From Candidatus Rokuibacteriota bacterium (lineage in GTDB: Bacteria > Methylomirabilota > Methylomirabilia > Rokubacteriales > CSP1-6), in NCBI GenBank assembly GCA_016200085.1, contig JACQFL010000008.1, positions 1 to 64,000 of the forward strand: 64,000 bases of DNA, in the 5' to 3' direction. The translations under genes were made by a program, and so were the position numbers. Below, one piece after another: positions 1,293 through 26,437 of the stretch. Numbering within the stretch: position 1 is the first letter of the stretch; each line of letters begins with the position of its first letter. Below the pieces are notes generated by a model. That model had not been told where the DNA came from, made no database searches, and worked only from the letters and a program-made list of their open reading frames with translations.

Positions 1293-2141
1293 TTGGACGT
1301 GGCCCGCCAGCGCAAGGGGAGCAACGTCACCCGCGTCTACGAGGCGTTGCGGGCCAAGATCCTCTCCCTCGACCTCGAGCCGGGCCGCAAGATCGACGAA
1401 GCGGCCCTCGCCAGGGAATTCGGTGTGTCGCGCACCCCGGTGCGCGAGTCCCTCGTCCGGCTCGCCTCGGAGGGGCTGGTCGTCCTCCTGCCGAACCGCG
1501 GCAGCCAGGTGGCGCCGCTCGATCTGGCCAGCGTCCGCGACTATCTCGAGGCGATCGACCTGTGTCAGCGCGCGGTCACGAGCTGGGCGGCCCTTCGGCG
1601 TCGGCGCGAGCATCTGGAGCCGATCGAGCACGCCACCCAGCGCTTCGAGGAGGCGGTCGCGGCGCGGGACACGGATCAGATGATCCTGGCCAACCGGGCG
1701 TTCCACGCGGCGATCGCCGACGCGTGCGGCAACGCGCACGTCGGCCTGGCCTACAAGCGCTTGCTCGACGAGGGGCTCCGCTTCGCTCGATTCACCCTGA
1801 ACGAGCTCTACTACCGAAAGAGCCAGACCTACCAGGAGTTCGTCGAGACCGTGGTGAAGGAACATCGGCAGATCGTCGAGGCCGTCATCAGGCAGGATGC
1901 GCGGACGGCGGAATCGCTCGCCGCGGCCCACACGGAGCACACGCGGGTCCGCTTCACCGACTTCCTCAGCGACAGCCTGTCGCCGGGAATCAGCATCTGG
2001 CCGGTGATGGCACCGGAACCCGGCGGGCCCCGCGGGGACGCCGCGCTCAGCGCAGATAGACGCGATGGAGTCCCCGGGCGAGCCGGGGGACGATCTCCAG
2101 GAGCTCGAGGCCGGTCGTCCGGCTCAGCTCGTCGGCGGTGA
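1293..2141 (+). CDS. GntR-family regulator, FCD (FadR-like) type
   Basis: Transcriptional regulator with an N-terminal winged helix (VYEALRAKILSLDLEPGRKI, then LAREFGVSRTPVRESLVRL, about residues 12-60) and a C-terminal all-helical FCD effector domain (about 85-225, with the metal/acid-binding pattern N...H near 'ANRAFHAAIADACGN' and 'EHRQIVEAV'). I chose the TTG start because GGAAGGAG lies 7 nt upstream. FCD regulators usually stop near residue 230; here the frame continues about 50 residues in unnatural Arg/Gly-rich sequence antisense to the racemase gene end, so the last part is probably a non-functional tail. It sits convergent to the hyu operon and is a good candidate to control it or the divergent transporter. 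The ligand is unknown. Confidence 0.85.
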   Translation: MDVARQRKGSNVTRVYEALRAKILSLDLEPGRKIDEAALAREFGVSRTPVRESLVRLASEGLVVLLPNRGSQVAPLDLASVRDYLEAIDLCQRAVTSWAALRRRREHLEPIEHATQRFEEAVAARDTDQMILANRAFHAAIADACGNAHVGLAYKRLLDEGLRFARFTLNELYYRKSQTYQEFVETVVKEHRQIVEAVIRQDARTAESLAAAHTEHTRVRFTDFLSDSLSPGISIWPVMAPEPGGPRGDAALSADRRDGVPGRAGGRSPGARGRSSGSARRR

Positions 2142-3144
2142 TCTCGTCGTCGCCCTGGCGGCCGAGGACGACGGCTTCATCCCCCACGGCCGCGCCGGGG
2201 ATCGTGGTGACGTCGAGCATGAGGTGCTCCATCGACGCCAGTCCGACCATCGGCGCCCGGGCTCCGCGCACGAGCACGTGACCGTGTAGCACGCGCGGCA
2301 GACCGGCGGCGAAGCCCATCGGGATGATGGCCGCCCGGATGGTCTCGGCTGCCGGCGTCGAGCCGCCGTATCCGATCCGCATGTCGGGGCGCACGGTCTT
2401 CACCTGGATCAGGCGGCTCTTGATCGCCCGGACGACCGGGATGACCTGCGCGAGCGCCGCCCACGGGCCTTCGAGCATCCCCATCAGCATGCGGCCCGGG
2501 TTGACGGCGGAGAGGTGCAGGTCCGCATAGCCGAGCAGCACCCGGCTGCTGGACGCCATCAGCTCGAGGCCCGTGAAGCCGGCCGCCTCCGCTTCCCGGA
2601 CCGCCTGCCGGAACAACGCCGCCTGGCGGCTGACGGACGCCGCATCGTCGACGGCGCCGATGTGCGTGTAGATGCCCCGGAGATGGAGCGCCGGTGCGCG
2701 CCGTATCTGCCCGAAGATGTGCGGCCAGCTCTCGGGCGTGAAGCCCAGTCGCCCGAACCCACAGTCGACCTTCACGAACGCCTCGAGCGGGCGGCCCAGT
2801 CCCGCGAAGGCCTGGAGACCTTCGACGTCGTGCAGCGTCGCGGTCAGGTCCAGCTCGGCGACGGCGGCCGCGCTCGCGGGGTCGGTCGCGCCGTAGAGGA
2901 GGATCGGGGCGTTGATCCGGCGCGCGCGGATGGCCGCGGCGTCCGCCAGGTCACCGACCGTGAGGGCGTCGGCTCCGGCCTTGAGCGCGGTCTCCGCGAC
3001 GTCGCCGGCGCCACAGCCGTAGCCGTCGCCCTTGCAGACGGCGTAGATGCGGACAGCGGGCCCGACCAGGTGACGGATGCGCTCGACGTTGTGCGCCAGC
3101 GCGCGAAGATCGATCTCGACCCACGCCCCAGGGTGTGACGTCAT
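2047..3144 (-). CDS. Alanine racemase-family PLP enzyme
   Basis: Fold-type III PLP racemase of 365 residues, near the usual 360-380. The N-terminal barrel carries the PLP lysine in AVCKGDGYGCG (about residue 38), and the second domain has the tyrosine general base region RIGYGGST. It interconverts an L- and D-amino acid; the substrate need not be alanine. The start is ATG at 3144, with GAAGGAG 9 nt upstream. Its ATG overlaps the TGA of hyuB by 4 nt, so the two are translationally coupled. Position in a hydantoinase/oxoprolinase operon suggests it racemises the amino acid released from, or feeding, that ring-opening step rather than serving peptidoglycan synthesis. Family assignment is firm, substrate is inference. 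Confidence 0.88.
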   Translation of the reverse strand: MTSHPGAWVEIDLRALAHNVERIRHLVGPAVRIYAVCKGDGYGCGAGDVAETALKAGADALTVGDLADAAAIRARRINAPILLYGATDPASAAAVAELDLTATLHDVEGLQAFAGLGRPLEAFVKVDCGFGRLGFTPESWPHIFGQIRRAPALHLRGIYTHIGAVDDAASVSRQAALFRQAVREAEAAGFTGLELMASSSRVLLGYADLHLSAVNPGRMLMGMLEGPWAALAQVIPVVRAIKSRLIQVKTVRPDMRIGYGGSTPAAETIRAAIIPMGFAAGLPRVLHGHVLVRGARAPMVGLASMEHLMLDVTTIPGAAVGDEAVVLGRQGDDEITADELSRTTGLELLEIVPRLARGLHRVYLR

Positions 3145-5039
3145 CTCGAGCCGCTCCTTCGTGGTGTCTGTCGACGCCCTCGCGGGCGGTCGCGCTTGCG
3201 GCCGTCGAGCGCGGCCGGCCCGGCGTCGATGGCCAGGGCGTCCGCGAGCGCACGGTCGAAGTGCGCGACGTGGGTGTCCTCCCTCCGGCGCGCCCGCCCG
3301 CGACGCCTCATCTTCTGGCGCAGCGCCGCGGTCGCCTTGTCGTCGAGGGCCAGGGTGCGGGGTCGGATGACCACGCCATACTCGCTGCGGGCATAGTCCC
3401 GCGTGATCTTTTCGTCCCGCACGTCGGCGAGGACCCGGGCCGCATCCCGCACCAGCGGGTCGCCGAATCCCCCCGCGCCCGCCAGGAGGTGGCAGAACAC
3501 GTCGCCGCGACGCATCTGGTACCCCTGCAGGGGAAGCACGGGCAGGATCCGCTGGTGCGGTCCGGGGTTCAGGATGTTCCACGAGGGCGTGCCGTGCTTG
3601 CCGCCCTGCACGCCGAAGGGGGGATGGGCCCGGCGGTCAGTCCGGAAGGTGAGGAAGCCTTCGTCCGCCGTGAGTCGATATTCCCGGACGATCGCCAGCC
3701 CTCCGCGGAACCTTCCCGGGCCGCCCGAGTTCGCGACGAAGCCGTACCTCAAGATTTCGACCGGGTTGTCCGCCTCGATGAACTCCACGGGCTGGTTCGA
3801 CTGGTTGGCCGCCAGATTGGCGGCCCCGTCGATGCCCTCGCGGTCGGGCCGGCCGCCCCACGCCCCCATCACGGTTTCCGCGAAGATGTAGGGCTCGCCG
3901 TGGGAGAGGCCGCCGATGCTGATGTTCGTCGCGCCGCCCTCGCTGCCCGCGGGAATCCGGTCGGGCACCGCCTTGGCGAGAGCGCCGAGCACGGCGTCCA
4001 TCGCCCGGAAGCCGACGATTCCGCGCGCGTTCGCCGCGGCGGGCAGCGCGGGGTTCACGATCGTCCCTGCCGGCGCGACAACAGAGATCGGCCGCATGTA
4101 TCCCTCGGCATTCGGGATGTCGCGGCCGGCGAGGCAGCGGAACGGCACGTACGTGGCCGAGTAGATGAAGGGGCCGGGCGCGTTGATGGCCGCCTTCACC
4201 TGGGGCGACGTGCCGGTCCAGTCCACGACCGCCTCGTCCCCCTTGATCGTGATCGCGACCTGGAACCGGATGGGCTCGGGATGCTCGCCGAGGCCGTCGA
4301 TGAAGTCCGTGAACCGGTACGTGCCATCCGGGAGCCGGGCGATCTCCGCCCGCATGACGCGCTCGGCGTGCGCCTGGATCGCTTCGAGGTACCGCCAGAA
4401 CGTCGGCACCCCGTACCGCTCGAGCAGCTCCAGGTACGCCTGCTCGCCGCGGTAGCAGCCGGCGACCTGGGCGCGGAGATCGCCGAGCACCTTGCGCGGC
4501 ACGCGGACGTTGTGTTCCAGGATTGCCAGCAGGGTCTCGTTCGGCTCGCCGGCCGCGTAGAGGCGCAGCAGGGGGATGCGCAGCCCCTCTTGAAAGATCT
4601 CGGTGGCGTGGACGGCGATGGCGCCCGGTGAGAGACCGCCGACGTCGGTGTGGTGCGCGAGGGTCGTCGCGTACCCCTGGACCTCCTCCCCGAGGAAGAT
4701 GGGCTTGATGACGTAGAAGTCGGGGAGGTGCATGCCTCCGCTGCCGTAGGGGTCGTTGAACAGGAAGACGTCGCCCGGACGCATGAGCCCCTGCTGCTTC
4801 TCGACGAGGTTACGCATGGCGAACGGGAAGGACCCGAGGTGCAGGGCCGTGGTGAGACCCTGCGCCACCATGCGTCCCTGCCAGTCGCAGATCGCCGTCG
4901 AGTAGTCGAGGGAGTCGCGGACGATCGGCGAGTAGGCGCTGCGCATGAGGACGAGCGCCATCTGGTCGGCGATGGAGTCGAGGGCGTTCTTCACGACCTC
5001 GAACGTGATCGGATCGAGGTCGCGCTCCACGAGGCTCAC
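3141..5039 (-). CDS. hyuB: Hydantoinase B / 5-oxoprolinase subunit B
   Basis: Catalytic-partner subunit of ATP-dependent N-methylhydantoinase, acetophenone carboxylase or 5-oxoprolinase type complexes, which open cyclic amides or carboxylate ketones with ATP. About 632 residues. Family marks include DPITFEVVKNAL at the N-terminus, GDVFLFNDPY, MHLPDFYVIKPIF, LAHHTDVGG, and the C-terminal GGPGRFRGGLAIVREY. I chose the GTG at 5039 because it overlaps the hyuA stop as GTGA. The C-terminal 50 or so residues are Arg-rich and not typical. Cytoplasmic, part of hyuA-hyuB-racemase. Exact substrate cannot be read from sequence. Confidence 0.9.
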   Translation of the reverse strand: MSLVERDLDPITFEVVKNALDSIADQMALVLMRSAYSPIVRDSLDYSTAICDWQGRMVAQGLTTALHLGSFPFAMRNLVEKQQGLMRPGDVFLFNDPYGSGGMHLPDFYVIKPIFLGEEVQGYATTLAHHTDVGGLSPGAIAVHATEIFQEGLRIPLLRLYAAGEPNETLLAILEHNVRVPRKVLGDLRAQVAGCYRGEQAYLELLERYGVPTFWRYLEAIQAHAERVMRAEIARLPDGTYRFTDFIDGLGEHPEPIRFQVAITIKGDEAVVDWTGTSPQVKAAINAPGPFIYSATYVPFRCLAGRDIPNAEGYMRPISVVAPAGTIVNPALPAAANARGIVGFRAMDAVLGALAKAVPDRIPAGSEGGATNISIGGLSHGEPYIFAETVMGAWGGRPDREGIDGAANLAANQSNQPVEFIEADNPVEILRYGFVANSGGPGRFRGGLAIVREYRLTADEGFLTFRTDRRAHPPFGVQGGKHGTPSWNILNPGPHQRILPVLPLQGYQMRRGDVFCHLLAGAGGFGDPLVRDAARVLADVRDEKITRDYARSEYGVVIRPRTLALDDKATAALRQKMRRRGRARRREDTHVAHFDRALADALAIDAGPAALDGRKRDRPRGRRQTPRRSGSR

Positions 5040-7141
5040 GCCGGCGCCGTCAACCGGATATTGCCGGAGGGATCGAGCGCCGCGCTCCATCCGGGAGGGA
5101 CCACGCAGGTGGCGTCGTACTCCTCGATGATGACCGGCCCGGGGTGGGTGTGCCCGCCGAGGGCGCGGCGGTCCAGGACGGGGGTGTCGAGCTCGCCGTG
5201 CCCCGGCCCGAAGAACGCGCGCCGGGTGTGGCGACCCGTGACCGGCTGGCTCGCCGCCGCCAGGACCCTGGCGATCAGGGCGGCCGTGCCGTCGGCCCGC
5301 TCGGACGCCACCACCCTCAGGCTGATGAGATCGACCGGCTCGTTCGTCGCGCTGTGGCCGTACGTGCGCTCGTGCTCCCGGGAGAACGTCTCGACCAGCC
5401 CGCCGGCGCCGAAGCGACGGAACGACCCGGGCGGTACCGGCACCGTGAGCTCGTAGGCCTGCCCCGAATAGCGGAGATCGGCGAAGCGATGGATCTCGAT
5501 GCCGTCCGGGGCGCAGCCTTCCCGCGCGAGCGCCGCACGCGCGCCGGCCTCGAGCCGGGTGAAGGCGTCGTCGACGAGCCGGGGCGCGAGGCCGGACGTC
5601 CGGTGGAACAGCGCCTGCGAGAACTCGCGCTCGCGCCGGGCGACGAGCAGGCCGAACGCGCTGAAGACCCCGGGCATCGGCGGCACGATGACTTCGCGCA
5701 TCCCGAGGGCCGAGGCGATCTGGGTCGCGATCAGCGGACCATTGCCGCCGAAGGCGAGCAGCCGGAACTCTCGCGGATCGCGGCCCCGGAACGTGGAGAC
5801 GGCCTTGACGGCCCGGCTCATCGTCGTCGCGGCGATGCGGAAGACCCCGTACGCGGCCTCGAGCAGTCCCAGGCCGAGGGGGCGGGCGACCTGGGCGCCG
5901 AGGGCGGCCCGGGCCTTCTCCGCGTCGAGTCGCACGGCCCCGCCGACGAGGTAGCGCGGATTGAGATAGCCGAGCGTCACCACCGCGTCCGTCAGCGTCG
6001 GGACGGTCCCGCCGAGGCCGTAGCAGACCGGCCCGGGAACGGCGCCGGCGCTCTGCGGCCCCACGGTGAGCACCCCGCTGGCGTCGACGGCGGCGAGGCT
6101 GCCTCCGCCCGCCCCGATCTCCGAGATGTCGAGCACCGGGAGCTTGAGGGCATGGCCGCGCCCCTTGACGAGCTGGCTGCTCAGGTTGATGCCGGCGCCG
6201 ACCTCGTACTCGGAGGTCTTCGTGACCTGGCCGCCTTCGACCATGGAGGCCTTGGCCGTGGTGCCGCCCATGTCGATGGTGATGACGTTCTTGTAGCCGC
6301 AGAGCTCGGCCAGGGTCGCCCCCCCGATGACGCCGGCCGCCGGCCCGGACTCGACGATGTAGGCGGGCTTCTGCAGGACGCCTTCGACCCCCATGATCCC
6401 GCCGCTGGACTGCATCACCTGGAGCGGGGCCTGGATCCCGAGGCCCCGCAGTCCCGAGATCAGGGCCGACATGTAACGCTCCACCATCGGGCCCAGGTAC
6501 GCGTTGATCACGGTCGTGCTCGTGCGCTCGTACTCGCGGATCTCGCGGAGGATGTCCGACGAGCAGGACACGAAGACGCTCTCGGGCAGCATCCGGCGCG
6601 CGAGCGCGGCGAGGCGGCGCTCGTGGACGGGGTTGCCGTACGAGTGCAGGAGGCAGATCGCCAGCGCCTCGATCCCGCTCTCGCGCAGTCGTCGCATGGC
6701 CTGCTCGGCGCTCCGCCGGTCCAGGGGAAGGCGGATCTCGCCCCGGGGCCCGATCCGCTCGGCCACCTCGAGGCGCAGGTGACGGGGAACGAGCGGGGCG
6801 GGGGCCTCGTAGAGGAAGTTGTAGAGCTCCGGGATGCGGACCCGCCGCAGCTCGAGCACGTCACGAAAGCCCCGCGTCGTGATCAGGCCCGTGCGGGCGC
6901 CGCGGCCCTCGAGAATGGCGTTGGTGGCCACCGTCGTGCCGTGCACGACGCCCGCGATCGCGCCCCGGGGCACGCCCGTCTCCCGCAGGAGATCGTCGAT
7001 CCCGGTGACGATGGCCACCCCGTAGTCGGCCGGCGTGGAGTGGAGCTTGCGTCGCGCGATGAGGCCGTCGGTGCCCAGGAGGACGAGGTCGGTGAAGGTG
7101 CCGCCGACGTCCGCGCCGATGCGATAGGACGGCTCAGGCAC
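5036..7141 (-). CDS. hyuA: Hydantoinase A / 5-oxoprolinase subunit A
   Basis: ATP-binding subunit of the hydantoinase/oxoprolinase family, about 701 residues, with the actin/ASKHA-like fold. Visible motifs are IGADVGGTFTDLVLL (phosphate-binding) near the N-terminus, VVHGTTVATNAILEGRG, QSSGGIMGVEG, ESGPAAGVIGG and TIDMGGTTAKAS. I preferred the GTG at 7141 over an ATG 48 nt upstream because GGAGG lies 6 nt before it and the longer start would run into the divergent promoter. It heads a minus-strand operon with hyuB and an alanine-racemase-like gene. The neighbouring family-5 importer could supply the cyclic or peptide-like substrate. Confidence 0.9.
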   Translation of the reverse strand: MPEPSYRIGADVGGTFTDLVLLGTDGLIARRKLHSTPADYGVAIVTGIDDLLRETGVPRGAIAGVVHGTTVATNAILEGRGARTGLITTRGFRDVLELRRVRIPELYNFLYEAPAPLVPRHLRLEVAERIGPRGEIRLPLDRRSAEQAMRRLRESGIEALAICLLHSYGNPVHERRLAALARRMLPESVFVSCSSDILREIREYERTSTTVINAYLGPMVERYMSALISGLRGLGIQAPLQVMQSSGGIMGVEGVLQKPAYIVESGPAAGVIGGATLAELCGYKNVITIDMGGTTAKASMVEGGQVTKTSEYEVGAGINLSSQLVKGRGHALKLPVLDISEIGAGGGSLAAVDASGVLTVGPQSAGAVPGPVCYGLGGTVPTLTDAVVTLGYLNPRYLVGGAVRLDAEKARAALGAQVARPLGLGLLEAAYGVFRIAATTMSRAVKAVSTFRGRDPREFRLLAFGGNGPLIATQIASALGMREVIVPPMPGVFSAFGLLVARREREFSQALFHRTSGLAPRLVDDAFTRLEAGARAALAREGCAPDGIEIHRFADLRYSGQAYELTVPVPPGSFRRFGAGGLVETFSREHERTYGHSATNEPVDLISLRVVASERADGTAALIARVLAAASQPVTGRHTRRAFFGPGHGELDTPVLDRRALGGHTHPGPVIIEEYDATCVVPPGWSAALDPSGNIRLTAPA

Positions 7142-7165: not shown

Positions 7166-7199
7166 TTGCGAGGGTACCACTAAGTGCATAAATTATGCA
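7166..7199 (+). promoter_or_regulatory. Divergent promoter with overlapping palindrome
   Basis: Between hyuA and the importer operon there is TTGCGA (7166-7171), a 17-nt spacer and TAAATT (7189-7194), a plausible sigma70-type promoter for the importer. The perfect palindrome TGCATAAATTATGCA (7185-7199, central A) covers the -10. The position suggests an operator, possibly for the GntR regulator at 1293. Both the promoter and the regulator link are inference. Confidence 0.5.
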
Positions 7200-7233
7200 T
7201 GCAAAAGGCGGGTAGCCAGAGGGAGGACAAGAC

Positions 7234-8853
7234 ATGGGCAGCTCGTGGATCCGCAATGCCATCGTCGTCGGCGTGGCGATGGTCGGGCTCTGGGCGCTCG
7301 CCGCGGACCTCGCCGGCAGGGCCGACGCGCAGCCGGCCTCCGCGCCGAAGCTGACGATGGTGGCGAGGAGCGGCAGCGCCCTCGAGCAGCAGGTGGCCCT
7401 CGCCATCGCGGCGAAGCTGAAGGAGATCGGTCTCGGCGTGGAGGTCGTGTCCGCGGACTACACCACGATGGCCGCGCGTGCCCGGCGGTCCGCGCTGTCG
7501 GGGGAGACGTGGGCGCAAGGCGGCTTCGACATCATCTTCTTCAATCTCGCCGGGATGGCCTTCGAGCCGGCGGGGATGAACCGGTACTTCCACAGCGCAT
7601 CCAAGAGCGCCGCCAACTTCTGGAGCCTCGCCGACCCCCAGCTGGACCGGGAGCTGGACGCGGCCAGCACGGCGCTCGACGTGCCGAAGCGCGCCGAGCA
7701 CTACGCGAGGGCGGCCCGGCTGCTCCGCGACGACATGCCGGTGGTGCCGATCTTCCATCCCCGGCTCGTGTACGCCCTGCGCACGGGGTGGACCGGGATC
7801 AAGGCCAACCAGGTGAACCAGTCGAAGGCGACCGCGAGCTTCTTCCAGATGAAGTATCAGGGCAAGGACGCCAAGCAGCTGCGCATGGCAACCCCGGAGG
7901 ACATCCGGACCCCCAACGCCCTCTTCGACTGGACGAACCCCGGCAAGACACTCAACAGCATGGTGTTCGACAGCCTCGTCATGCTCGACGACGCGTTGCA
8001 GCCCGCGATGCCGGCGCTGGCGCAGAGCTGGAGCTTCACCGATGGCGGCAAGACGGCGACCTTCAAGCTCCGCAAGGGCGTCAAGTGGCACGACGGGAAG
8101 CCCTTCACGAGCCGGGACGTCAAGTTCAGCTTCGAGACCCGGATGAACAAGGAGGCGGGCGCGGAGCTGGGCTCCGGCTTCCGCATGGTCGAGCAGGTCC
8201 AGACGCCGGACGACGCCACCGTCGTCCTCAAGATGCGCGAGGCCTACGCGCCGCTGCTGTTCGAGGTCGGCTTGACCGAGATCGTGCCCGCGCACGTGTT
8301 CGAGGGCGTGGCGCCGAAGGAGCTCTCCAAGAGCCCGTACACCTCGGGCGAGAAGCTCATTCCCGGCACCGGGCCCTACCGGCTGGTGGCGTGGAAGAAG
8401 CGGGAGCAGATCGAGCTCGACGCGAACCCGGACTACTTCCGGGGCAAGCCGACGGTGGGCCGCATCACGCTGTCCATCATCCCGGACAAGGCCACGGCCA
8501 TGGCCTCGATCCGGGGCGGCGAAGTCGACGTGCTGGACGTCATGTACGAGCTGACCAAGGAGCTCGACGAGCTGAAGGCGGATCCGAACGTCACCCTGTT
8601 CGTCTACGAGGCGCTGAACGTCGAGGTCATGGGCTTGAACCTTCGACATCCCATGCTGAGCAATCCGGCGGTCCGCCAGGCGATCGCCCTCGCCGTGCCC
8701 AGGGAGCACATCGCGAAGGATCTGGGGCGAGGGTACCTGACGGTGGCCACCCAGCTGCTGCACCCCCAGTCGTGGGGGTACGCCAAGCAGCTGGCGTCGG
8801 TGCCGTTCGACGTGAATGCGGCGCGCGAGCTGCTGAAGAAGCAGGGCCAGTGA
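7234..8853 (+). CDS. Family-5 ABC substrate-binding protein, domain order permuted
   Basis: Periplasmic binding protein of the DppA/OppA/NikA family, 539 residues, with a signal peptide (about 1-33). The family's segments are in swapped order. Residues about 38-205 match what is normally the C-terminal lobe portion (GLGVEVVSADYTTMAARARR, FDIIFFNLAG, NFWSLADPQLDRELDAA, DDMPVVPIFHPRLVYALR). From about 216 the normal N-terminal portion begins (FDSLVML, SWSFTDGGKTATFKLRKG, KWHDGKPFTSRDVKFSFE) and continues through GTGPYRLV and the PAVRQAIALAV helix, ending at WGYAKQ...ARELLKKQGQ exactly where the C-terminal lobe should start. AGAGGGAGGACAAG precedes the ATG. First gene of an importer operon with two permeases. 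Confidence 0.85.
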   Translation: MGSSWIRNAIVVGVAMVGLWALAADLAGRADAQPASAPKLTMVARSGSALEQQVALAIAAKLKEIGLGVEVVSADYTTMAARARRSALSGETWAQGGFDIIFFNLAGMAFEPAGMNRYFHSASKSAANFWSLADPQLDRELDAASTALDVPKRAEHYARAARLLRDDMPVVPIFHPRLVYALRTGWTGIKANQVNQSKATASFFQMKYQGKDAKQLRMATPEDIRTPNALFDWTNPGKTLNSMVFDSLVMLDDALQPAMPALAQSWSFTDGGKTATFKLRKGVKWHDGKPFTSRDVKFSFETRMNKEAGAELGSGFRMVEQVQTPDDATVVLKMREAYAPLLFEVGLTEIVPAHVFEGVAPKELSKSPYTSGEKLIPGTGPYRLVAWKKREQIELDANPDYFRGKPTVGRITLSIIPDKATAMASIRGGEVDVLDVMYELTKELDELKADPNVTLFVYEALNVEVMGLNLRHPMLSNPAVRQAIALAVPREHIAKDLGRGYLTVATQLLHPQSWGYAKQLASVPFDVNAARELLKKQGQ

Positions 8854-8900: not shown

Positions 8901-9878
8901 GTGAGCCTTTTCGCGTTCCTCCGCCGGCGTGTGCTCTCCGCCGTCCCGCAGTTCCTGGGGATGACGATCATCGTCTTCGTCATCCTCCGGCTCGCTCCCG
9001 GCAGTCCCGTCGACTACTACCTGGCGACGAATCCGTACGCGACCCAGGAGTACATCGCGGCCCTCGAGGAGCGGATGGGGCTGCGGCTGCCCCTGTGGCA
9101 GCAGTACGCGCGCTGGCTCGGGGGGATCGTGCAGGGTGATCTGGGCGAGTCTCTGTCCCATCCCGGCAAGCCGGTGAGCAGCCTGCTGCGCGACAAGATC
9201 CGCAACTCGCTGATCCTCTCCCTCGCCGCCAACCTGCTCAGCGTGGTGATCGCGATCCCCGTGGGCGTGATCGCGGCGGTCCGACGGGGGAGCGCGGTCG
9301 ACGGCCTCGTCCGGGTGTTCACCCTGTTCGGCTACTCGATGCCGTCCTTCTGGCTGGCCCTCCTCCTGATCCAGGTCTTCACGGTCAGGCTGCATCTCCT
9401 GCCGCCAGCCGGCTTCATCACCGTGCCCTCGGATGCCGCCGTCGTGGACGTCGTGATCGACGGCGTGCGCCACGCCATCCTGCCCGTGGTGGTCCTCGCG
9501 CTCCTGGGCGCGGCGCTCACGAGCCGGATGGTGCGCTCCAGCATGCTGGAGGTGCTCGGTGACGACTACATCAGGACGGCGCGCGCCAAGGGACTGCAGG
9601 AGCGGCGGGTCGTCTACGGGCACGCGCTGCGGAACGGCTTGCTGCCGACGGTGACCATCCTCGGCCTGCAGGTGGGATACCTGCTGGCGAGCGCCGCCGT
9701 GACGGAGACCGTCTTCGCCTGGCCGGGGGTCGGCCGCGAGGTGATCCAGGCGACGTACACGCGGGACTACCCGGTCATCATGGGTATCACGGTGATCGTC
9801 GGCACGACGCTCATCGTCGTCAATCTGGTGACCGACGTCCTCTACTCGTGGCTCGATCCGAGGATCCGATACCAGTGA
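8901..9878 (+). CDS. Peptide-type ABC permease (DppB-like)
   Basis: Inner-membrane permease of the peptide/nickel importer family, 325 residues, usual length. N-terminal FAFLRRRVLSAVPQFLGMTIIVFVI helix and the periplasmic LAPGSP segment are DppB signatures. The EAA loop is visible as YIRTARAKGLQERRVVYGHALRNGLLP, and it ends with VTDVLYSWLDPRIRY. GTG start preceded by a purine-rich stretch. It pairs with the DppC-like gene directly downstream. No cognate ATPase genes follow, so the nucleotide-binding subunits must come from elsewhere. Confidence 0.9.
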   Translation: MSLFAFLRRRVLSAVPQFLGMTIIVFVILRLAPGSPVDYYLATNPYATQEYIAALEERMGLRLPLWQQYARWLGGIVQGDLGESLSHPGKPVSSLLRDKIRNSLILSLAANLLSVVIAIPVGVIAAVRRGSAVDGLVRVFTLFGYSMPSFWLALLLIQVFTVRLHLLPPAGFITVPSDAAVVDVVIDGVRHAILPVVVLALLGAALTSRMVRSSMLEVLGDDYIRTARAKGLQERRVVYGHALRNGLLPTVTILGLQVGYLLASAAVTETVFAWPGVGREVIQATYTRDYPVIMGITVIVGTTLIVVNLVTDVLYSWLDPRIRYQ

Positions 9879-9890
9879 GGACGACGCGGC

Positions 9891-10730
9891 GTGGATGATC
9901 GGATCTGGAAGCGCTTCCTCCGCCAGCGGCTCTCGCTCGCGGGCCTGATGCTGATCCTCGGGATCCTGCTCATCGCGAGCGTGTCGCCGGTGCTCGCCCC
10001 CTACGATCCGTACGCCCAGCACTGGGGCAAGGAGTACGCGGCGCCGGGGCGGCCGTTCGTCCTCGGGACGGACGCGCTGGGCCGTGACGTGATGAGCCAG
10101 CTGATCTGGGGCGCCCGGACCTCGCTCCTCGTTGCGCTCGCCGGCGTGGTCGTGGCCGGGATCCTCGGGACCGCGTTCGGGGTGGCGGCCGGATACTTCG
10201 GCGGCCGGATCGACCAGCTGGGCGTGATGCTCACGGATACCATCCTCACGGTCCCGGTCTTCTTCCTGCTCATCGCCGTCGCCTCGGTGCTGGCCGTGCG
10301 GAGCCTCCCCGTCATGGCGATCATCATCGGCCTCATCGACTGGCCGATGCTCGCCCGGGTGGTCCGCGCGCACGTGCTGTCCCTCCGGGAGCGGACGTTC
10401 ATCGAGGCGGCGCGGGCGCTGGGCGTCCGCGATGTGGCGATCGTGGTGCGGCACATCCTGCCGAACTCCGTCGCGCCGATCATCGTGGTGTCCACGCTCA
10501 GCATGGCGCGCTACATCCTCTACGAGGCGGCCCTGGCGTTCGTGGGCCTGGGGGACCCGGAGGCCATCTCGTGGGGGACGCTGCTCGCCCAGGGCCGATC
10601 GGTGATGTACACGGCCTGGTGGCTGACCCTGCTCCCGGGCATCATGATCTTCGTCACCGTGCTCGGGTTCAACCTCGGCGGCGACGGCCTGCGCGACGCG
10701 TGCGACGTGCGACTGGTGGAGCGCGGGTAG
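9891..10730 (+). CDS. Peptide-type ABC permease (DppC-like)
   Basis: Second inner-membrane subunit of the importer, 279 residues. DppC marks include the N-terminal single helix, PYDPYAQHWGKEY, FVLGTDALGRDVMSQLIWGARTSL, and the EAA loop FIEAARALGVRDVAIVVRHILPN. GTG start with GAGGACG upstream, 12 nt after the DppB-like stop. It ends convergent with the PaaA-like gene, so the operon is only binding protein plus two permeases. Confidence 0.9.
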   Translation: MDDRIWKRFLRQRLSLAGLMLILGILLIASVSPVLAPYDPYAQHWGKEYAAPGRPFVLGTDALGRDVMSQLIWGARTSLLVALAGVVVAGILGTAFGVAAGYFGGRIDQLGVMLTDTILTVPVFFLLIAVASVLAVRSLPVMAIIIGLIDWPMLARVVRAHVLSLRERTFIEAARALGVRDVAIVVRHILPNSVAPIIVVSTLSMARYILYEAALAFVGLGDPEAISWGTLLAQGRSVMYTAWWLTLLPGIMIFVTVLGFNLGGDGLRDACDVRLVERG

Positions 10731-10758: not shown

Positions 10759-11499
10759 TCACACGCTCAGGTCGACCTGGGGCGGCAGCTCCAGCGGGAG
10801 CTCGCTCCGCTCCGGGAAGCGCAGCCCGCAGCGCGCCATCACCGGGCGGATGCTGTCGACGTAGGCGGCCGCCACGTCGCCGCTGTCGCGGGTCTTGAGA
10901 CCCACGCGGAGGCAGTACTGGTTGCCCGGCGTGCCGGCGCGGCCGAAGATCCGCATGGAGGCCACGAACCACTTCTGGAAGCGCCGCTGGATCTCGGCGC
11001 GCGCGGCGGGATCCTGACACATCTGCTCGAGGCCGGCCTCACCGAAGCTCTTGTGCCCCTCTTCTTCCTTCAGGATGACGTCGTTGGCCTGCGCCAGCGG
11101 CAGGTAGCTGCCCTTGGTGTACTCGGTGAGCTGGAAGGTGGCGGCGCGGTCGATCATGAAGTTGAAGAGGGTCGCGTCGATCCAGTCCTGGATCTGCATG
11201 TCCGCCTCGTCACCGGTGAACCGGGCCCCCGCCCGCTGCCGGTCCCGGACGTAGGCGTCCATGTCCACGCCGAGCTCGCTCATGATCCTGGCCAGGAGCT
11301 GGAAGTGCTTGAGCTCCTCGTGCTGGAAGCGCGTGATGCGAATCTTGTCCTCGACCGTCGGCGCGTGGAGCACGCACTGCCCGAACACCTCGGCGGTCGC
11401 CACTTCGCGGCTGGCCTGCTTGTCCATCAGGGTCAGGACCATCTTCCGGTACTCGGCATCGGGGATCTCGTCCTTCGAGCGCACGGGGGACGCGGTCAT
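10759..11499 (-). CDS. PaaA/PaaC-like di-iron ferritin-fold protein
   Basis: Protein of 246 residues resembling the phenylacetyl-CoA epoxidase catalytic subunit family (PF05138). The ferritin-like four-helix core has paired metal-ligand motifs: HEELKHF (about residue 65) and LKEEEGHKSF (about 150), with EVFGQ and QLTEYTKG between. Di-iron oxygenase or oxidase chemistry is expected, but the other Paa subunits (B, C, D, E) are not nearby, so the substrate is open. ATG at 11499 has GGAGG about 6 nt upstream. It is divergent from the MFS gene and convergent with the importer operon. Confidence 0.75.
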   Translation of the reverse strand: MTASPVRSKDEIPDAEYRKMVLTLMDKQASREVATAEVFGQCVLHAPTVEDKIRITRFQHEELKHFQLLARIMSELGVDMDAYVRDRQRAGARFTGDEADMQIQDWIDATLFNFMIDRAATFQLTEYTKGSYLPLAQANDVILKEEEGHKSFGEAGLEQMCQDPAARAEIQRRFQKWFVASMRIFGRAGTPGNQYCLRVGLKTRDSGDVAAAYVDSIRPVMARCGLRFPERSELPLELPPQVDLSV

Positions 11500-11586
11500 C
11501 GATCCTCCTCGGTGGACGGCTTGCTCGTCCAGGAAGGTGAGCATAGCGCAGCGGCACTCGTTTGGCCCCGTGCTATAAACGGCCGC

Positions 11587-12846
11587 GTGACGGCGGCGCG
11601 CGCGCGCGTCTTCTACGGGTGGTGGGTGACGGCGGCGTTCTCCGTCATGGTCTTCGCGTCCACGGGCGTGCGTCACGCCGTCGGCCCGTTCCTCAAGCCG
11701 ATGGTCGCCGATCTCCACGTCGATCGCGCAAGCTTCTCGCTGGTGATCGCCCTCGGCCTCTTTCTCTACGGCGTGTTCATGCCGCTCGTCGGAGGCCTCG
11801 TCGATCGCGTCGGCGCGCGGGCGGTCACGGCCGGCGGCGCCATCGTCCTGGCCGGCTCCCTCGCGCTGACGGGGGTCTGCCGGACCATCTGGGATCTCGC
11901 GCTGGTCTACGGCGTGCTGGCGGCGGTCGGTCTCGCGGCGACGGGCCCCGTGGTGGCCAACGCCGTGGTCTCGCGATGGTTCGTCGCCCGGCGGGGCACG
12001 GCGGTCTCGGTGCTCGGCAGCGCGAGCATGACGGGAATGAGCCTGCTCGTCCCCGTCGTGACCTGGCTCATTCTCTCGCTGGGCTGGCGCATGACGTACC
12101 TGGCCATCGCGCTCTTCGTGCTCGTGGGCATCTTGCCCCTGTGCCTCCTGGTGGTTCGCGACTCGCCCGAGTCCATGGGGCTGTGTCCGGACGGCGCGCC
12201 CGAGGGCCCCGGCGGGCGCGCGGGGCGCGCCGAGCGCACGCCCGTCGGCACCGCCGCCCACACGGTCGCCTTCTGGCAGCTGTCCGGCTCGTTCCTCACG
12301 TGCGGGTTCTCGATGAGCCTCCTGTCGGCCCACGGGATCCCGATGCTCACCGACCACGGCTACACCCCGCTCTTCTCCTCGTGGGTGCTCGGCGTGCTGG
12401 GCGCCTCCAGCATCCTCTTCACCATGCTGCTCGGTACGGCGTCGGACCACTTCGGCCGGCGGCCCGTGCTCGCGGCGATCTACGCGGGGCGCGCGCTCGC
12501 CTTCGCGGGCCTGTTCCTCATCCGCGACAACCCGGCGGCGATCCTCGCCGTCGCCGTCTTCGGCGGCACGACCACCGCCGGGACGATGTCGATGACGTCG
12601 GCGCTCACGGCGGACATCTACGGGCGGTTCTCGGTGGGGACCATCCTGGGCGCGATCTTTCTCATGCACCAGACGGGGGCCGCGATCGGCTCCTGGCTCG
12701 CGGGCGCGCTGTTCGAGGTCACCGGCGGGTACGGTGTCGCCTACGCCATCGCGTGCGCCATCCTCGTGGGCGCCGCGCTCGTGAGCCTGCGCATCGACGA
12801 CGGCCGCCGGCGGCTGTCCTGGACCGCCCGCGCGGCCCGCGCCTGA
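11587..12846 (+). CDS. MFS transporter, monocarboxylate/oxalate-type
   Basis: Twelve-helix major facilitator of 419 residues. The start (RARVFYGWWVTAAFSVMVF) and the pattern of the first helices match the oxalate/formate and monocarboxylate porter group. The loop 2-3 motif appears as GGLVDRVGARAV and the equivalent second-half motif as GTASDHFGRRPVLAAI. A charged central loop follows helix 6 (about residues 195-220). GTG at 11587 is chosen because a TATAAAC-like sequence lies just upstream and longer frames run into the divergent gene. Substrate unknown, probably a small organic acid. Confidence 0.82.
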   Translation: MTAARARVFYGWWVTAAFSVMVFASTGVRHAVGPFLKPMVADLHVDRASFSLVIALGLFLYGVFMPLVGGLVDRVGARAVTAGGAIVLAGSLALTGVCRTIWDLALVYGVLAAVGLAATGPVVANAVVSRWFVARRGTAVSVLGSASMTGMSLLVPVVTWLILSLGWRMTYLAIALFVLVGILPLCLLVVRDSPESMGLCPDGAPEGPGGRAGRAERTPVGTAAHTVAFWQLSGSFLTCGFSMSLLSAHGIPMLTDHGYTPLFSSWVLGVLGASSILFTMLLGTASDHFGRRPVLAAIYAGRALAFAGLFLIRDNPAAILAVAVFGGTTTAGTMSMTSALTADIYGRFSVGTILGAIFLMHQTGAAIGSWLAGALFEVTGGYGVAYAIACAILVGAALVSLRIDDGRRRLSWTARAARA

Positions 12847-12947
12847 GCCGCGGCGCGCGTCGGGCCGCCGCGACCGCACCATCGCCCATCACCCGGACTG
12901 CCGCGGCAGCGCACGCACCCGCCTGCCGGCGAGGCGCTCGCGCCCCG

Positions 12948-26358: not shown

Positions 26359-26437
26359 GACCCCGTCGTCTAGCCTGGCCCAGGACGCGACCCTTTCAAG
26401 GTCGAGATCGCGGGTTCGAATCCCGCCGGGGTCACCA
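26359..26437 (+). tRNA. tRNA-Glu (anticodon TTC)
   Basis: All arms can be folded. Acceptor GACCCCG pairs with CGGGGTC. The D-arm is GTC-TAGCCTGGCCCAG-GAC, the anticodon stem CGACC/GGTCG holds loop CTTTCAA (anticodon TTC), and the T-arm is GCGGG-TTCGAAT-CCCGC. CCA is encoded. The GTCTAG D-arm start is usual for tRNA-Glu. Its 3' end is the attachment site of the island to the right. Confidence 0.93.

Follow-up and report, generated by a model that had tools for sequence, protein, structure and literature searches.

A probable circular permutation in a family-5 ABC-importer binding protein from a Rokubacteriales genome

The open frame at positions 7234–8853 (+) of the window (the whole stretch of DNA analysed, 64,000 nucleotides of contig JACQFL010000008.1 from a Candidatus Rokuibacteriota bacterium) encodes a protein of 539 aa, here P0001, which in our estimate (a probability of about 0.85) is an exported and circularly permuted binding protein of ABC-importer family 5 (SBP_bac_5, cluster C), with its chain ends in domain III. 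P0001 is probably a real, functional variant, for which we infer both function and substrate; the permutation is well supported, and the role of a working receptor is moderately supported. The layout of the gene is as follows.

7219..7226 (+): likely ribosome-binding site (gagggagg), 7 bases 5' of the ATG, from reading of the sequence
7234..7329 (+): signal peptide, residues 1–32, from reading of the sequence; a helix at 5–27 in the AlphaFold2 model
7348..7851 (+): C-terminal third of a normal family-5 protein, residues about 39–206 (DppA 374–535, PF00496 289–364)
7852..7872 (+): point at which the old C-terminus meets the old N-terminus (KYQGKDA), from the part profiles and the DppA alignment
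7864..8850 (+): N-terminal two thirds, residues about 211–539 (DppA 29–370, PF00496 3–277)
8851..8853 (+): stop codon, at the usual start point of the C-terminal part, from reading of the frame

The front part (39–206) comprises the second half of domain III, the return hinge strand and the C-terminal segment, and the rear part comprises domain I, the first hinge strand and the first half of domain III, ending in the helix NAARELLKKQGQ. The secretion signal that the first-pass annotation had placed in front of both was read at residues 1–32; it has no lipobox cysteine, and cleavage is likely after Ala32, between GRADA and QPAS, which would make Gln33 the approximate start of the mature protein. 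The near-normal total length noted at the same time also holds, since the mature chain has about 507 aa, the length of mature DppA. The GC3 value is 0.96–0.97 in the signal, the C part and the N part, and it is 0.96 in dppC and 0.94 in dppB, the permease genes that follow.

Order of the two parts

The whole of P0001 matches the Pfam profile SBP_bac_5 (PF00496) with 263.1 bits, the gathering cut-off being 32.4. Profile positions 3–277 match residues 259–538 (E 5e-71 to 6e-78), and positions 289–364 match residues about 39–123 (E 1e-5 when the front part is scanned alone, at 25.3 bits, which is below the 32.4-bit cut-off); nearly all of PF00496 (3–277 plus 289–364 of 368 positions) is present in P0001 with its halves exchanged. 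Using profiles specific to each part, which were made from the C and N parts of 39 normal-order relatives with P0001 left out, the C-part profile was located at residues 39–193 (60.7 bits, E 6e-15 in a million-sequence search) and the N-part profile at residues 211–538 (291 bits); of 200 shuffled copies of P0001, the part profiles reported none. In a phmmer search of the PDB, residues 228–534 resembled AppA 36–339, and residues 40–190 resembled AppA 362–503.

Alignment with E. coli DppA places residues 40–206 against DppA 374–535 (15.5% identity) and residues 214–539 against DppA 29–370 (27.5% identity), such that the two parts together span nearly the whole of mature DppA without overlap, the cut lying at DppA 370/374. 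The helix before the cut reads AARELLKKQG in P0001 and AKALLKEAG in DppA, and the cut is the loop after this helix. The boundaries first proposed (38–205, then from about 216 on) proved accurate to within a few residues by the part profiles and the DppA alignment, and the proposal that the protein stops where the C-terminal lobe would begin is correct to about 4 residues (DppA 370/374). Between the profile edges at 193 and 211, 17 residues stand for 16 missing profile positions, which leaves essentially no inserted linker where the old ends are joined.

The family-conserved positions N128, D138, R153 and P112 are present. Conservation of the C part is weak (about 15–24% identity), with a mean residual of -1.9 given the divergence of the N part, a value that lies inside the spread seen among other relatives (sd 1.95). 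The order of the parts, the near-complete and non-overlapping coverage of DppA and the confident fold predicted for the single chain (see below) all support the circular permutation that the first-pass annotation had put forward.

Predicted fold, possible origin and known permutants

AlphaFold2, given an alignment of P0001 with fragments of normal-order relatives, folded the full protein as one compact unit (mean pLDDT 79.5, pTM 0.81); since the fragment subset was picked so that MAFFT aligned the fragments as expected, the model speaks for the compatibility of the permuted chain with one fold and amounts neither to homology nor to independent proof. The structure prediction suggested at the outset thus gave one fold rather than two unrelated half proteins. 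Modelled residues 207–539 superpose at Z 21–24 on AppA, NikZ and DppA, in alignments that start near the first residue of each (for NikZ 1–316, Z 22.9 and rmsd 2.4; for DppA 1–340, Z 21.0 and rmsd 3.7). When modelled alone, the C part is loose (pTM 0.55, with residues 173–179 below 50) and its structural matches are weak, family-5 C-terminal thirds being best at Z 5–8 and rmsd 8–10; the C-part family profile maps to mature DppA 355–505 and to 1xoc 354–520. The strand at 170–184 is confident only in the full model and not in the C part alone, which suggests that it packs on the N part. Confidence in the model is low over residues 192–207, at the C-to-N join.

How such an exchange could leave the protein intact may be seen from EppA, a cluster C protein whose chain runs from domain I into the beginning of domain II, on through domain III and back into the remainder of domain II, and whose domain III is one continuous stretch with a two-strand hinge leading in and out, the chain ends being in domains I/II (PMC7312458). 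Because both normal chain ends lie in domains I/II, joining the old ends would be easy, and because domain III is continuous, a cut inside it would keep the two-strand hinge. In P0001, the old C-terminus runs straight into the old N-terminus, and the new ends are in domain III, in the loop that separates a helix (AARELLKK) from a strand. There the start and the end of the mature chain would meet, completing that domain, and both hinge crossings would be retained, allowing the clam-shell closure to take place as normal; the ligand would be handed to the adjoining DppB/DppC-type permeases, with power from DppD/DppF-type ATPases encoded elsewhere.

Both parts are likely, from their sequences, to descend from one single gene. 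Most probably, a normal gene was fused or partly duplicated in tandem, and later deletions may then have left the signal peptide ahead of the C-terminal third. The route first suggested, a tandem duplication followed by the loss of both outer parts, is a plausible hypothesis; since the signal peptide comes first, it also requires either that the first N part was deleted internally or that a signal was gained anew.

The closest comparison is with E. coli DppA and other SBP_bac_5 proteins (PF00496, cluster C), to which both parts of P0001 are homologous over nearly the whole mature length; P0001 shares their predicted fold and likewise lies beside DppB/DppC permeases, but has its two parts exchanged. 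Since the colinear N-to-C order is absent, unlike in 130 other family members (see below), P0001 is a variant, non-standard member of SBP_bac_5. A natural circularly permuted ABC-importer binding protein is known from Treponema pallidum: Tp0684 (TpMglB-2) binds its ligand and changes shape (PMC4990184). However, TpMglB-2 is a sugar-binding lipoprotein of Type I (cluster B), whereas P0001 belongs to cluster C and has no lipobox cysteine; moreover, the permutation in TpMglB-2 adds a fourth crossing between the lobes (PMC4990184), whereas the cut in domain III of P0001 should leave the two hinge crossings as they were. The glycine-betaine-binding proteins (PDB 2B4L, 1R9L and 1SW1) are also related by circular permutation, as reported in the CPSARST paper, where the relationship was found by structure between highly diverged proteins (PMC2395249). 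They too are a natural case among ABC-importer binding proteins, but they are another kind of protein, and their sequence is unrelated to family 5.

Rarity of the arrangement and alternative readings

In a survey of order, both part profiles were run against all frames with 150 or more residues, taken from 145 loci and the window (146 sequences in all). All but one of the 131 distinct family-5 frames surveyed (130) have N before C, and only P0001 has the swapped order, the two rows scored as permuted both being P0001. No permuted relative was found in 95 genomes of the same class or phylum, from which P0001 itself was recovered as a positive control, in about 400 genomes of a Chloroflexota-like phylum, in 385 genomes of an Alphaproteobacteria-like class or in three further groups (293, 319 and 297 genomes), that is, across about 1,790 genomes overall, although these large scans scored 3–4 candidates per genome at strict E-values and distant permutants could therefore be missed. 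Nor did any appear in plasmids or viral contigs, or among the 80 loci that a peptide-seeded scan of 84,980 GTDB species brought up. The host genome has more than 30 family-5 matches, and none of its paralogues examined for order is permuted; the closest permease orthologues have 47–50% identity, and the binding proteins that adjoin them are of normal order. The homologues sharing the permuted order that the first-pass annotation proposed to look for were thus not found, and no protein matched across the junction, in the genomes (about 1,790), the plasmids and the 84,980-species scan; with no orthologue of P0001's order found, there is no sign of conservation by selection. A search of the mainly open-access literature yielded no report of a circular permutation of DppA or of any other family-5 protein.

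One alternative is that the front part comes from a different family-5 gene that was fused before an N-terminal fragment, without any permutation of a single gene. The C part is indeed weakly similar to all relatives (best 20–30%), the similarity ranks of the two parts show no significant correlation across 39 relatives (rho 0.17, p 0.29), and the same possibility was raised for TpMglB-2 by its authors (PMC4990184). This origin is nevertheless unlikely: the parts complement each other, with neither overlap nor gap, to about 4 residues; the relation between C and N identity lies inside the spread of ordinary relatives; AppA (1xoc) and 5u4o, the top two PDB matches, each match both parts; and composition is uniform across the parts. 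That P0001 is instead a decaying or non-functional rearranged gene is very unlikely, even though the arrangement is seen once and has no orthologues, in view of its 539-codon open frame, signal peptide and ribosome-binding site, and of the family-conserved residues kept in both parts, the strong codon bias and the intact permease operon.

It is more improbable still that a misjoin in a draft, metagenome-like assembly produced the swapped order. The host genome is a 57-contig draft, and a 14-base exact repeat (ACGCCAAGCAGCTG) lies both at the join (7868–7881) and near the end of the gene (8780–8793). Against this, an artefact needs three novel joins (signal to C, C to N and N to stop), each of which would have to preserve the frame and fall at a structural boundary; the stop is correctly placed, 47 bases ahead of dppB; the host genome has no near-identical second copy of the region; and the repeat, which encodes AKQL with common codons, would not by itself yield the swapped order. 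Misassembly is thus judged unlikely because of the three in-frame junctions at structural boundaries, the lack of a repeat that could drive a misjoin and the uniform composition. The same 14-base repeat was also considered as a recombination scar and rejected, since it is probably due to chance in biased codons.

Few bacterial transport proteins are as numerous as the family-5 binding proteins, whose annotation assumes colinearity. The odds seem slightly in favour of P0001 being the first recognised natural permutant of family 5 (cluster C), its mature chain ends having shifted from domains I/II into domain III without loss of the import function. If so, P0001 would be the founding member of a permuted subclass, in parallel with the "cluster Bc" that has been proposed for TpMglB-2. 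From a natural permutant one would learn that the three-domain fold and the docking to the permeases tolerate relocated chain ends; such a protein could also serve as a natural template in the engineering of sensors and transport receptors, and it would document a permutation in which the export signal is still in front. It would also be a warning that profile annotation gives one family match and masks the exchanged order.

Operon partners and substrate

The surroundings of the gene for P0001 contain the following features.

8901..9878 (+): DppB/OppB-type permease, same operon, 47 bases 3' of the P0001 stop
9891..10730 (+): DppC/OppC-type permease, same operon
7185–7199 (no strand): perfect 7+1+7 palindrome TGCATAA-A-TTATGCA, a candidate operator in the start region of hyuA and the gap between it and the P0001 gene
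5036..7189 (-): hydantoinase A/oxoprolinase-like subunit (hyuA), divergent neighbour
3141..5090 (-): hydantoinase B/oxoprolinase-like subunit
2047–3582 (-): alanine-racemase-like gene, above the NCBIfam cut-off, beside the hydantoinase A/B-like genes

The palindrome is the sole such site in the window, with 0 expected in shuffles. The true start of the alanine-racemase-like gene is likely near residue 140–150 of the listed frame. No ATPase gene was found beside the operon formed by P0001 and dppBC, and the host genome encodes eight oligo_HPY (DppD/DppF-type) ATPases elsewhere, as four neighbouring pairs, which makes the sharing of an ATPase likely; indeed, more than 30 family-5 matches for eight such ATPases suggest that many importers share them.

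The "DppA-like" label of the first-pass annotation holds for family and fold. It does not extend to the DppA dipeptide-binding equivalog (NF043070), for which P0001 scores 120.6 bits and misses the cut-off of 1005, or to a residue that binds the dipeptide. The cut-off of the NikA nickel-binding equivalog (TIGR02294) is likewise missed (172.1 bits, cut-off 393), as are the other equivalog cut-offs. In DppA, the dipeptide is held by two residues, Arg383 and Asp436 (PMC12136057). Asp436 aligns with Gly107 of P0001, and Arg383 belongs to a stretch that is absent from P0001 in the DppA alignment; most other relatives also lack both residues. Given the missed cut-offs and the Gly107 in place of Asp436, the substrate may be something other than a dipeptide. 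The hydantoinase/oxoprolinase-like and alanine-racemase-like neighbours hint, as an argument from neighbourhood, that the ligand might be a small amide, a lactam, an amino-acid-like compound or a short peptide compound.

Elsewhere in the window, the frame at 10759–12882 (-) is far too long at its start, and its residues about 474–694 correspond to a PaaA/PaaC-like (MiaE-like) ferritin-fold protein. On the opposite strand, an MFS transporter overlaps this frame; the true start of the transporter lies near residue 190 of its own frame. A tRNA gene at 26359–26434 (+) is the sole Rfam match in the window.
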